Below are positions 40,721-48,931 of a DNA stretch of 64,000 nt, in pieces. The stretch lies in the NCBI RefSeq assembly GCF_021531975.1, contig NZ_JAFBIY010000001.1:124001-188000 (forward strand), read 5' to 3'. A program made the position numbers and the translations under genes. The notes beneath the pieces are model-generated. The model was not told the origin of the DNA. It made no database searches and saw only the letters and a list, made by a program, of their open reading frames with translations. Each line of letters opens with the position of its first letter. Within the stretch, counting starts at the first letter, position 1. This DNA comes from Faecalicatena contorta (GTDB lineage Bacteria > Bacillota > Clostridia > Lachnospirales > Lachnospiraceae).

Positions 40721-40749
40721 TTGACAGATATAGCGTGAAGTGATAATCT
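40721..40749 (+). promoter_or_regulatory. Promoter of rplJ-rplL
   Basis: TTGACA (40721-40726) and TAATCT (40744-40749) have a 17-bp spacer. It gives rplJL an independent promoter now that the genes are separated from rplKA. Confidence 0.75.
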
Positions 40750-40753
40750 ATTA

Positions 40754-40815
40754 TAGGACTGCCGAAGACAGCAGGTGCGTGAGCGTAAGTAATGAAACGC
40801 CTGCCGAGGAAAGTT
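40754..40815 (+). ncRNA. Ribosomal protein L10 leader
   Basis: The segment contains the conserved L10-leader core ACTGCCGAAGACAGCAGGTG, then the closing strand CGCCTGCCGAGGA. GCAGGTGCG pairs with CGCCTGC around a GAGCGTAAGTAATGAAA loop. In Firmicutes this RNA binds L10(L12)4 and represses rplJL. It is followed by an intrinsic-terminator-like hairpin. Confidence 0.92.
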
Positions 40816-40837
40816 AGATTCGTATTTTTGAATTTGT

Positions 40838-40874
40838 AACACCTCTGTGTCTTTGGATACAGGGGTGTTTTTTT
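40838..40874 (+). terminator. Attenuator hairpin downstream of the L10 leader
   Basis: AACACCTCTGT (40838-40848) pairs with ACAGGGGTGTT (40859-40869), followed by TTTTT. It lies between the L10 leader and rplJ, so L10 binding may cause premature termination. Confidence 0.85.
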
Positions 40875-40925
40875 AAGATATTCCTTATAGCAGTCGAACA
40901 AATAATATAAGGAGGTGCACCATTC

Positions 40926-45427: not shown

Positions 45428-45447
45428 AAACGGCAGAGGTAATGGAG

Positions 45448-47070
45448 ATGGAAGTTTATCAGGGAAAATCAATATTTAAAGGTATTGCTATTGGGAAGCT
45501 GTTTTTTTACTCCAAAGGAGAACAGGCTGTAAAGCGAGAGAAGATTCAGGATGTGGAAGCTGAGATTGCCCGTTATGAGGCGGCAAAGGAAGAAGCAATC
45601 GCACAGCTGAATGCATTATATGAAAAAGCTGTAAAAGAAGTCGGTGAAGTAAATGCGGCGGTATTTGAAGTGCATGCTATGATGCTGGACGATGATGATT
45701 ATGTGGATTCCGTAAAGAATATCATAGAGACGCAGCAGGTAAATGCAGAATTTGCTGTTGCCACAACGGGAGATAATTTCTCTAATATGTTTGCGGAGAT
45801 GGAGGATGACTATTTCCGTGCAAGGGCTGTCGATGTGAAGGATATATCCGAACGCCTTGTAAATGTATTGAGCGGAAGAAATGAAGGAAGCGATATCGGT
45901 GAGGAGCCGGTAATTGTTGTTGCTGATGATCTGGCACCAAGTGAAACGGTGCAGATGGATAAGGATAAGCTCCTTGCATTTGTTACAAAGTATGGTTCTT
46001 CTAATTCTCATACAGCTATTCTTGCAAGAACAATGAATATTCCGGCACTGATCGGTGTTGAGATCCAGGAAGACTGGAATGGGAAGCTGGCTGTCGTAGA
46101 TGGCTATGAGGGCTGTCTTTATATTGAGCCGGAAGAAGAAGTCCTTGTGAAAATGAAGAAACGTCAGCAGGAAGATATGGAGGTAAGAGAGCTTCTTCAG
46201 AATCTCCGTGGTAAGGAAGACGTGACTTTGGATGGAAAGAAGATTCGTCTGTATGCAAATATCGGAAGCGTAAAAGACGTTGCCAGTGTATTGGCAAATG
46301 ATGCTGCCGGTATTGGACTGTTCCGAAGTGAATTCCTGTATCTGGAAGCAGAAGATTATCCAGACGAGGAGGCACAGTTCCAAGCTTATAAGACCGTTGC
46401 TGAAAATATGGCAGGAAAGAAAGTAATTGTCCGTACGCTGGATATCGGCGCAGATAAACAGGTGGGATACTTCGGTTTAGATAAAGAAGAAAATCCGGCT
46501 ATGGGATATCGTGCAATCCGAATCTGCCTTGACAGAACAGATGTATTCAAGACACAGCTTCGCGCACTGCTTCGTGCAAGTGCTTTTGGCAACATTGCCA
46601 TTATGTATCCGATGATTATTTCGGTGGACGAAGTAAGAAGAATCAAGGCAATCGTAGAAGAAATCAAGAAAGAACTGGATGAGCAAGGCATTCGCTATGG
46701 TGAGGTCGAGCAGGGTATCATGATCGAGACCCCGGCAGCAGTGGTTATCAGTGATCTCCTCGCAGAGGAAGTAGATTTCTTCAGTATTGGAACCAATGAC
46801 CTGACGCAGTATACACTTGCAATCGACCGTCAGAATATGAAGCTCGACAACATTTATGATGCACATCATCCGGCAGTACTTCGTATGATCCAGACGACCA
46901 TCGATAATGGTCATAAACATGGCTGCTGGGTAGGAATCTGTGGTGAACTTGGCGCAGATATGACACTGACAGAGACATTCGTAAAAATGGGAATAGATGA
47001 ATTGTCCGTATCTCCGTCATGCGTATTGCCGATCCGTAAGCTGATACGGGAGATGCGTGTGGAAGAATAG
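45448..47070 (+). CDS. ptsI: PTS enzyme I (second copy)
   Basis: A 540-aa enzyme I, highly similar along its length to the copy at 23209-24858. It has active H188 (SHTAILART), GIGLFRSEF, RTLDIGADK, IETPAAV, IGTNDLTQY and GICGELG. The start ATG 45448 is 7 bp after AGAGG (45435-45439); ATG 45442 is too close. It closes the glucose PTS operon. With the preceding HPr-like gene it gives this operon its own complete phosphorelay. The highly structured element begins four bases after the stop codon. Confidence 0.95.
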   Translation: MEVYQGKSIFKGIAIGKLFFYSKGEQAVKREKIQDVEAEIARYEAAKEEAIAQLNALYEKAVKEVGEVNAAVFEVHAMMLDDDDYVDSVKNIIETQQVNAEFAVATTGDNFSNMFAEMEDDYFRARAVDVKDISERLVNVLSGRNEGSDIGEEPVIVVADDLAPSETVQMDKDKLLAFVTKYGSSNSHTAILARTMNIPALIGVEIQEDWNGKLAVVDGYEGCLYIEPEEEVLVKMKKRQQEDMEVRELLQNLRGKEDVTLDGKKIRLYANIGSVKDVASVLANDAAGIGLFRSEFLYLEAEDYPDEEAQFQAYKTVAENMAGKKVIVRTLDIGADKQVGYFGLDKEENPAMGYRAIRICLDRTDVFKTQLRALLRASAFGNIAIMYPMIISVDEVRRIKAIVEEIKKELDEQGIRYGEVEQGIMIETPAAVVISDLLAEEVDFFSIGTNDLTQYTLAIDRQNMKLDNIYDAHHPAVLRMIQTTIDNGHKHGCWVGICGELGADMTLTETFVKMGIDELSVSPSCVLPIRKLIREMRVEE

Positions 47071-47073
47071 GAA

Positions 47074-47365
47074 TTTGGCTCAGTGATTTTATCTGAGGCA
47101 GAACAGTGACGCGAGACAGCTGAACTTTGAAAAACGAACCAGTCGCTGACAAACGGTAAACATCAAAAGCTGATATAACATTCGTAACCGAGTATATTCG
47201 ACGGGAACTCCTGATGAGTTCCGCGTCTCAGATACTCTTTCGCCTTGTTTGGGAAATACAAGGCGAATACGAAGTTATATCAGCTTTTTCTGCAACCGTT
47301 TGTAACGCTCTTCCACGTTTCCCCAAGCTCAGCTGTCTCGCGTCACTTGTAATGTCTCAGCCAAA
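47074..47365. repeat. 292-nt nested palindromic element with branched apex
   Basis: Nested arms from outside in: TTTGGCT/AGCCAAA (47074-47080, 47359-47365); a perfect 19-bp stem with left arm AGTGACGCGAGACAGCTGA (47105-47123, 47329-47347); ACAAACGGT/ACCGTTTGT (47149-47157, 47295-47303); a 15-bp perfect stem with left arm AAAAGCTGATATAAC (47165-47179, 47274-47288), extended by TTCGTA/TACGAA. Two apical hairpins follow: GAGTAT...GGAACTC-ctgat-GAGTTCC...ATACTC (47190-47237) and TTCGCCTTGT...ACAAGGCGAA (47239-47267). No ORF is seen. It could be a structured RNA or a palindromic mobile element. Confidence 0.8.
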
Positions 47366-47450
47366 ATACTGAAGCCGCATAGTTAAAGCAATTCCACCAC
47401 GTTATCGGCGCAGTAACAAGCTCTTTTTCATTCCCTGTGAGCGAAAAAGA

Positions 47451-47600
47451 AAATTTGTAATGACTTTTTTGGGAAGTAAATCATTTCCTCGGAGACAAAA
47501 CTACAAAATGAAATGACTTTTTCGCTATGAAGTTCATTCGAATTTGTATTTTTTCTATGTGGAGCTGACTTCGACTTCTCAAAATTCATTACAATTCTTT
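47451..47600. repeat. AT-rich imperfect inverted repeats between the two large palindromes
   Basis: TTGTAATGA (47455-47463) pairs with TCATTACAA (47586-47594). Inside, AAATCATTTC (47478-47487) faces GAAATGA (47510-47516). The sequence is T-rich and non-coding. 47366-47450 and 47601-47685 show nothing I can name. Confidence 0.5.
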
Positions 47601-47685
47601 ACTTTTACATATAGGAACTGAAAAGACCAGATATATAACATGTTTTGCCAACAAACTGAGGCGTTCACTTTTACCCGAAATTGCC

Positions 47686-47894
47686 AGTACAGTAAATGGT
47701 AGCGGATGTCGCTATGATGCTTTGCGGAGGTAAGCGGAAGACTTGGAGAATCCACTCCGAAGCTGTTAGGGCGCAGAAAACAAACGATGATTCTTGTTTG
47801 TTTTCTGCGCCCTTATAGATTCGTGAGTTAGTCGTAAAGTCGAACGCGTCGTAGCAAAGTATCATAGCGACATCCGCGTACCACTTACTATACT
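47686..47894. repeat. 209-nt palindromic element overlapping the 3' end of the Rpn gene
   Basis: The outer arms 47687-47701 and 47879-47894 pair with two mismatches. A 23-bp stem with one G-T wobble follows (47703-47725 with 47854-47876; core CGGATGTCGCTATGAT). The apex is a perfect 18-bp hairpin with left arm AGGGCGCAGAAAACAAAC (47768-47785, 47796-47813). The right outer arm covers the last codons and stop (47888-47890) of the minus-strand Rpn gene. Confidence 0.75.
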
Positions 47895-48931
47895 AAATTC
47901 CTATTCTTCATCTCTTCCATAATCTTATCAACATCATAATCCGGCGCATATTTTGCTGCTACATTACAGATTTTCTGTATAACATCCTGCTCTTCTTCCA
48001 GTGCATCCGCTATTTCTGAAACTCCTTTGTTTTTAGCTAGTTTTTTGCAGATGATTTCAATGCGATCTTCTAAACGTCCTTCTTCCCGGCTGATTCTTCT
48101 TGTTTCCTGCACATCGTATGCCTCAAAACTGTCAAATAACATATCAAATTCCCTCCCGATTATCTGGTCAGTAAACTGCTCCACCTCCTTCCGCGGGACA
48201 TTCATCCGATACAAAAGGACGGCGATGATCTTACTGATCAATTTCAATAAATATTCCGGTGTATGTTCTCCTAGATGTTCAAAATATTCCTTTGGAACTT
48301 CCTTAAGATTCTTGAATTCTTCTGAACTGCGAAGCTTATTGATCAGAAATATCAGAGAAAGTTCATCCTGCTTTTCAATCAATTCTTGATTAGTATAAGA
48401 CGTAAGCGGTACTACCAGATATTCAAAGTCCGGAATATACTTTCCAAGCACATCACTCAAATATACCCTGTCTTTAAAATTCTTTACTGCTGTCCAGGAT
48501 TCTGTCCCTTCGTAATAAATGACCGGAAGGACGGGTGGATACTTGAATTCCTTTGTCTTCGTAATACCCGGATGAAGCTTTTCCTGTTCGTTTTCATAAT
48601 CATTCAATATCATCACAATATAACGAAGTATGCGAAATGCCATATTGTAATGTACTTTCGACTGGTGTTCAACCAATGCGATTAAATAAAGATCCTGCCC
48701 TTTCAGATGAACTTTCTTTACGGTGTCAGAATCACGCCTCTCCTGCCACATAGGGAGAAATCTCTCAGAGATATCTTCAATATCTTCCGGCTTTACATCC
48801 TTCAAAATCTCTATCCCAAGATAACCTCTCAGGAACTGGGCACACAAGATGGGATCATCAAAGACAAGTTTAGCCCCGTTATCCTTTGCTTCATGGTTTT
48901 GCAGTTCATATTCTTCCTGTTTTTTAGTCAT
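47888..48931 (-). CDS. Rpn family recombination-promoting nuclease (Transposase_31-type)
   Basis: A 347-aa protein of the Rpn/PD-(D/E)XK family. It has an N-terminal DNGAKLVFDDPILCAQFLRGYLG, catalytic-core region QDLYLIALVEHQSKVHYNMAFRILRY (listed in parts: LVEHQS and RILRY) and VLPVIYYEGTESW. The tail RLEDRIEIICKKLAKNKGVSEIADALE is a helical repeat typical of these proteins. Family members cleave DNA, promote RecA-independent transfer and have been linked to phage defence. The start follows AAAGGAG. The gene is intact, unlike the fragment at 9616-10047. It lies between highly structured DNA and rpoB. Confidence 0.85.
   Translation of the reverse strand: MTKKQEEYELQNHEAKDNGAKLVFDDPILCAQFLRGYLGIEILKDVKPEDIEDISERFLPMWQERRDSDTVKKVHLKGQDLYLIALVEHQSKVHYNMAFRILRYIVMILNDYENEQEKLHPGITKTKEFKYPPVLPVIYYEGTESWTAVKNFKDRVYLSDVLGKYIPDFEYLVVPLTSYTNQELIEKQDELSLIFLINKLRSSEEFKNLKEVPKEYFEHLGEHTPEYLLKLISKIIAVLLYRMNVPRKEVEQFTDQIIGREFDMLFDSFEAYDVQETRRISREEGRLEDRIEIICKKLAKNKGVSEIADALEEEQDVIQKICNVAAKYAPDYDVDKIMEEMKNRNLV

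Follow-up and report, generated by a model that had tools for sequence, protein, structure and literature searches.

The large palindrome downstream of ptsI in the stretch of Faecalicatena contorta DNA analysed here (64,000 nt, hereafter the window) is the left third of an 831-bp non-coding repeat (47071-47901) with an architecture of three palindromes in series. The repeat is a member of what is probably a non-autonomous, MITE-like family of mobile elements of this genome that has replaced transcription terminators, and the hairpins of the element may do the terminators' job in their stead. More tentatively, the family might represent a new mode of integration, in which an enzyme would join each end of the element to a separate TA at stop codons and remove the terminator hairpin, the element being left as the sole transcription barrier between two housekeeping genes and hard to lose.

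Extent, fold and copies of the element

The features of the ptsI locus, in window positions, are as follows.

45442..47070, + strand: ptsI (TIGR01417, E = 4.3e-179), whose TAG stop codon (47068-47070) forms the left junction
47068-47069 and 47902-47903: left and right junction TAs of the window copy
47071..47901, + strand: complete element copy, left end GAATTTGGCTCAG..., right end ...CTATACTAAATTCC, boundaries from 21 complete copies
47078..47375, + strand: first palindrome, with branched apex (the feature originally reported), from the fold and from covariation across 18 copies
47425..47624, + strand: second palindrome, AT-rich (inverted repeat I2, 70% over 44 nt; fold)
47702..47877, + strand: third palindrome (inverted repeats I3 and I4; fold), its apical hairpin being formed by two 28-nt arms (47758-47823)
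47888..48931, - strand: Rpn-type nuclease gene (PF04754, E = 8.9e-24), convergent with ptsI

The limits of the element were set by alignment of the repeat copies. The original prediction had correctly recognised a large nested palindrome at this site but had it start 4 bp past the ptsI stop codon and end at 47365; the feature in fact abuts the stop codon, starting at 47071, and the element extends to 47901. The palindrome itself is real and lies far beyond chance, as the + strand of positions 47060-47380 folds at -148.7 kcal/mol (z = -13.98) and the - strand at -163.6 kcal/mol (z = -15.83), with none of 100 shuffles as low in either case and the reverse strand being the better folder of the two. 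For the entire 831-nt element, the fold reaches -339.2 kcal/mol (z = -21.6, 20 shuffles). Among the predicted arms, the perfect one of 15 bp was listed by the repeat finder, and those of 19 and 9 bp are visible in sequence and fold together with the two apical hairpins. The upstream gene was likewise rightly named as ptsI, and the statement that the feature contains no open reading frame is borne out by a longest stop-free run of 77 codons in the window copy, the corresponding values in the 21 complete copies ranging from 60 to 98 codons. At the other side, the third palindrome ends at about 47877 against the 3' end of the convergent Rpn-type gene, the final codons (RNLV) and stop codon of which sit within the right end of the element.

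At the edges of the element, a terminator scan detected no canonical intrinsic terminator, i.e. no GC stem with a T tract behind it; inside the element, the scan returned two overlapping minus-strand sites (47394-47416), compared to 0.6 expected. An 8-bp inverted repeat in the flanks of the window copy (GAAGAATA/TATTCTTC) had suggested a retained target stem, a suggestion that was dropped because nothing similar was seen by eye in the other copies compared. Elsewhere in the window, a ribosomal protein L10 leader is found at 40744-40880 (RF00557, 71.8 bits).

The genome searched comprises 2.44 Mb in 34 contigs, many of which end within an element. Queried with the first 305 bp, it yielded 89 matches, and with the 2004 bases downstream 81, both counts taking in fragments as well as arm-to-arm palindrome matches and the second also copies of the Rpn gene, whereas a 16-letter end pattern with one mismatch allowed was found at 79 sites versus 5 for the reversed control. 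The working set consisted of the 21 complete copies having both ends inside a contig, including four copies of a subtype (L075-L078) and leaving out contig-end copies, single-ended copies and most of the diverged relatives (L093-L100). These complete copies measure 365-836 bp, with a full length of about 830 bp and short versions that lack internal parts. The consensus is about GAATTTRGTTCAGTGATTTTATCTGA for the left end and GAATTTAGTATAGTAAGTGG for the right end in the inward direction, and on both sides the ends of the 21 copies read GAATTTRG or nearly so. The family thus combines the multiple copies, the terminal inverted repeats and the lack of an ORF by which MITEs are recognised. A TA is located just outside the left end in 20 and just outside the right end in 17 of the 21 copies; since target DNA seems to have been lost (see below), the two flanking TAs need not be one duplicated target site.

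Diverged relatives of the element with ends TGGAAATTTAG were seen at L093, L094, L095, L096, L098, L099 and L070:3715-4357, of which L093 and L094 lie between convergent ORFs that end in EI inside both element ends.

Siting at stop codons and the same gene pairs in relatives

Every one of the 21 copies has at least one end that is no more than 16 nt away from the stop of an inward-reading ORF. On the left side, the TA is part of an in-frame TAA or TAG of an inward ORF of 148 aa or more in 15 copies; the end lies 3 nt past the ORF stop in one copy, in two others the ORF extends into the element for 16 nt and has RNLVQ as its final residues, and no such ORF abuts the end in the remaining three. 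On the right side, the stop codon of an inward ORF is found within -5 to +16 nt of the end in 16 of the 21 copies, the ORF counted for L071 being one of 137 aa. Both ends are at stop codons, between convergent ORFs and with nearly no spacer, in 13 copies; eight copies do not have both ends at stops, and none lies between divergent genes.

For comparison, the 381 gene pairs in a 440-kb part of the genome, where 382 genes were called by a simple codon-usage script, comprise 31 convergent, 318 tandem and 32 divergent ones. Set against these 31 of 381 pairs, the 13 of 21 copies with both ends at stops correspond to a rough binomial P of about 7e-10. Five of the six pattern matches in the 440-kb part fall in three convergent gaps, the sixth (60938) being absent from the genome-wide pattern list. 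The 28 convergent gaps that are free of the element have a median length of 65 nt, with three of them not exceeding 10 nt and five not exceeding 20 nt. Avoidance of TGA at the 15 exact left junctions was considered as a rule and discarded as not significant (P = 0.15). Stop codons in the other two frames are carried within the first nine codons of the element.

Many of the flanking ORFs are housekeeping genes. Seven of ten neighbours compared with NCBIfam could be named, PtsI, aspartate-tRNA ligase, chorismate synthase and NADP isocitrate dehydrogenase among them, with the names PEP carboxykinase, uridine-kinase-like protein and TrhP/U32-like protein resting on matches below the cut-off, and the other three had no match at 1e-20. 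The latter we take by eye to be YqeY, a PrsA-like protein and a PTS component, and further neighbours, likewise named by eye, are presumably purA, truA, purL, rseP, pyk, ilvE, pepT, trpB2, MalY, S1 and ABC-F.

In order to pick relatives, an AspS fragment was searched across 394 genomes of the family (this one included), and five of the six nearest others (G155, G221, G261, G347 and G326) were compared, leaving out G240, which is 68% complete. The 26 flanking genes of 18 of the 21 copies were located by one chained query, with orthologues at 55% identity or more for 25 of them. The end residue agrees with that of at least one relative in 15 of these 25 genes, and in 23 the difference is no more than one residue. 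That genes are, as a general rule, truncated and given a stop codon by the element was rejected on this ground; an element-supplied tail has been added at icd and a few others.

Five pairs (aroC/udk, U32/PTS, yqeY/prsA, S1/GCAxxG and ABC-F/icd) are found in convergent orientation, no more than about 4 kb apart, in two to four of the five relatives, with gaps of 11-4072 nt, the long ones of which may hold other genes. Eight of the nine gaps shorter than 130 nt fold at -19 to -42 kcal/mol (values given without a shuffle control), the exception being the 11-nt aroC/udk gap of G326; in G347, the pair MFS/trpB2, which is not joined through an element in the window genome, is separated by 18 nt without a hairpin. 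In the window genome the spacer is missing at all five conserved pairs, and as the relatives belong to other genera, its replacement is inferred across genera.

Removal in silico of the element together with one TA extends the left gene by 18-171 nt in nine of the 13 convergent copies. The extension is 6 nt in a tenth (aroC/udk, where the udk stop stays), and the other three (L063, L071 and L078) show none. Because of the nine lengthened genes, this does not look like a simple insertion into an unchanged site, and spacer DNA appears to have been lost or exchanged. An ordinary MITE that entered very tight convergent junctions, either with duplication of a TA or just after the stop codon and without any loss of DNA, would be in line with the TA on both sides of most copies, with the three unextended left genes, with the small change at aroC/udk (a pair only 11 nt apart in one relative) and with the occurrence of tight gaps among those free of the element. 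However, a TA duplication is at odds with orthologue sets of which 23 of 25 end within one residue, while entry just after a complete stop codon, by which the stops would survive removal, needs all 13 former gaps to have been about 7 nt or less, the rough chance of 13 such tight gaps at 3/28 each being 2e-13. Moreover, five pairs have larger gaps in most of the relatives compared, and we regard such an ordinary insertion as unlikely.

If terminators were replaced, as we believe to be probable, the element might have spread by a reaction in trans in which its two ends were joined to two different TA sites. Where two such sites flank a 3' intergenic hairpin, the DNA between them would be lost and the element would take the place of the terminator. 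The TA of the stop codon would be the innermost site that spares the protein, with the first base of the element completing TAG or TAA (TA + G/A). Once the native terminator is gone, the hairpins of the element would presumably separate two convergent transcripts, and loss of the element might then be selected against, both steps being guesses. Alternatively, within the same reading, DNA might have been deleted stepwise from the element ends until coding sequence brought the deletion to a halt. Replacement by joining to TAs would explain that the junctions hug coding regions, that convergent sites are common and that divergent siting does not occur. Against replacement it has to be held that removal spares the left stops if their third base is the gene's own (insertion after TAR without duplication), a case in which only the near-zero gaps would be left to account for, and that the link to stop codons is tighter than targeting of hairpins alone predicts.

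The number of contigs ending inside an element might also raise the suspicion that short-read contigs were misjoined through the repeat. In this respect aspS and pckA (L061), which are convergent neighbours via an element here, are not adjacent in any of 29 aspS loci of relatives, and their adjacency could be due to recombination between element copies or to a misjoin in the draft assembly. However, the five element-joined pairs listed above are convergent and close in relatives as well, and misjoining cannot put the ends of an element at stop codons, which makes an assembly artefact a highly improbable source of the pattern as a whole.

Conservation of the stem and distribution of the element

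The left palindromes of 18 copies, 14 of the main type and four of the diverged subtype, were aligned, and standard pairs are kept in 97.0% of the cells. Two-sided changes are found in 27 of 113 pairs (102 cells), which none of 500 shuffles reaches, and partners slid by 1-3 columns are paired in 36-44%. There is no excess of further pair types (46 versus 47.6 in shuffles), and the two-sided changes are for the most part differences between subtype and main type, i.e. they go back to few events inherited by several copies. These data show that the palindrome is maintained, be it through selection acting on DNA or RNA or through arm-to-arm correction, and covariation among copies does not alone establish an RNA function. 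The compensatory changes whose lack the original prediction had named as a refutation thus do exist, and among copies of a repeat they show only the upkeep of a hairpin, be it in DNA or RNA.

A structured regulatory RNA, or a long 3'-UTR RNA, that is conserved for its function as RNA would agree with this strong covariation and with a stable fold on both strands. The element is, however, a dispersed repeat with fixed ends and unrelated neighbours, it folds better on the reverse strand, and neither a search of the window at the Rfam gathering scores nor a permissive search of the element placed it in a family, the best permissive match being RF01666 with 28.1 bits compared to a gathering score of 55. 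Beyond this genome, the 396 other genomes of the family yielded only two matches, one of 50 bp to the left end, seen in G347, and a weak one of 50 bases in G193, with two candidates scored per genome. The earlier proposal of an undescribed structured RNA is therefore not supported and very unlikely, the full copies found being DNA repeats of this genome. Its counterpart, a palindromic mobile element, is supported by a dispersed repeat of defined ends in this genome, the other genomes having yielded just these short matches.

In 78 other relatives, two matches of 30-43 bases were obtained, and a query with the diverged subfamily gave only matches of about 30-55 bases in the other family genomes (again with two candidates scored per genome). 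A search of GTDB contigs with the left-end pattern returned one match, a 50-bp left-end remnant in Faecalicatena contorta ET55. The site of the remnant (L130:4460-4514 in G347, which is probably ET55) is at a MalY-like gene, as beside copy L068, with 97% identity over 1.2 kb, and its 50 bases still supply the final codons (RNLIQ) and the stop codon of that gene. No match was found in phages and plasmids (blastn) or, for the exact left-end pattern, in viral contigs, collections that may lack the records of this genome and of its close relatives. Among the genomes searched, the full element is found only in this one. In the open PMC literature no description of this element family was recognised, which is no proof of absence.

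Known systems and candidate mobilising enzymes

Small bacterial repeats near 3' ends are easily ascribed to the lack of harm that they do there. The comparison with relatives adds more than harmless siting, as intergenic DNA is gone at five conserved pairs and an element reaches from stop to stop at 13 loci. The repeat would also provide some of the 3' ends of this genome, with a few extra codons in places (RNLV, RNLVQ). If confirmed, the replacement of terminators by the family would amount to a natural experiment, in which it could be tested whether mobile elements that target hairpins secure themselves by assuming a needed job.

The EFAR elements of Enterococcus (FEMS Microbiology Letters, 2007) are reportedly palindromic, modular miniature insertion sequences of 42-650 bp whose integration into short stem-loops led to the deletion of most of these. 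PMC1590033 places Efa elements preferentially close to the 3' ends of coding sequences, PMC2267715 describes a double hairpin in Efa-1, and EFAR appears in a list of bacterial MITEs in PMC3733652. Like EFAR, the element is palindromic and may have undergone the same kind of stem-loop exchange, but it differs by a length of about 830 bp, by three stacked palindromes, by TA junctions that on either side lie within or next to stop codons and in that no regular target stem is seen. A loss of stem-loops as in EFAR would be compatible with the hairpins in eight of the nine gaps of less than 130 nt in relatives, albeit of other genera, that are absent here.

A similar siting is known from GTAG REPs. 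According to PMC3733652, of the REPs that are located between convergent ORFs in two REP-rich genomes, most have both 3' ends at a distance of less than 20 bp, and the termini of GTAG REPs often supply a TAG stop codon. In the same way, 13 of the 21 copies lie at convergent sites within 16 nt of both 3' ends, and the termini supply a stop codon. REPs are, however, units of 20-40 bp with a GTAG tag, while the element, with 365-836 bp and ends reading GAATTTRG, lacks the tag and is, at full length, more than 20 times longer. With MITEs such as RUP, NEMIS, Chunjie and QMITE it has in common the inverted ends, the lack of coding capacity, the tens of copies and the shortened derivatives; it differs in exceeding the 50-500 bp given for MITEs in an excerpt of PMC10969869, in that it seems to replace target DNA and not only to duplicate it, and in that no parent IS was found. 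Rho-independent terminators between convergent genes occupy the same position as the element and presumably do the same job, but the element has no GC hairpin with T tract at its edges and is mobile and repetitive.

With respect to enzymes, three Y1 transposase genes are present in the genome, two of which are RAYT-like in length (L296:1303-2238 and L297:1099-1884) and have their own inverted hairpin repeats on either side (CAATTTGGGACGGGG..., TAATTTAGGACGTAGAC...). These hairpin ends differ from those of the element and have only the 7-base core AATTTRG in common with them, which may be chance or a lead, and no homology to the element of more than 22 bases was found within 1.5 kb of the Y1 genes. 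No pair of ends enclosing a transposase was noticed among the ends listed or the loci read, the enzyme searches being those with PF01797 and PF04754.

Copies or fragments of the Rpn-type gene were found at seven places (window 47888-48931, L066, L070, L147, L148, L093 and L146), six of them no more than about 300 bp from an element or one of its diverged relatives, which lies on the 5' or the 3' side. This proximity, together with the statement in PMC5350276 that overproduced Rpn proteins promote RecA-independent recombination in E. coli, would be compatible with a two-part mobile system that has the Rpn (PF04754) nuclease as its enzyme. However, striking as the association is, the Rpn genes lie beyond the element ends, and neither side nor orientation is constant (5' in C19, C34 and C25, but 3' in the window, in C9 and C11 and, where a diverged element is concerned, in C25). 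A duplicated junction is common to two of the copies, and the seventh (L146, on C3) is 5 kb away from the nearest element end. In addition, RpnA is described in PMC5350276 as a non-specific endonuclease, and the association may stem from recombination copying between elements. We regard such a system as unlikely. As a general partner, Rpn was dropped as too rare for a test, since no more than 11 of 200 genomes of the family, counting this one, have PF04754 at E <= 1e-10. Upstream of Rpn at L066:2330 and L147:245, one and the same TA adjoins an element, the orientation of which is opposite at the two places (right end at the former, left end at the latter), an arrangement which hints at independent insertions at one site or at an inversion.
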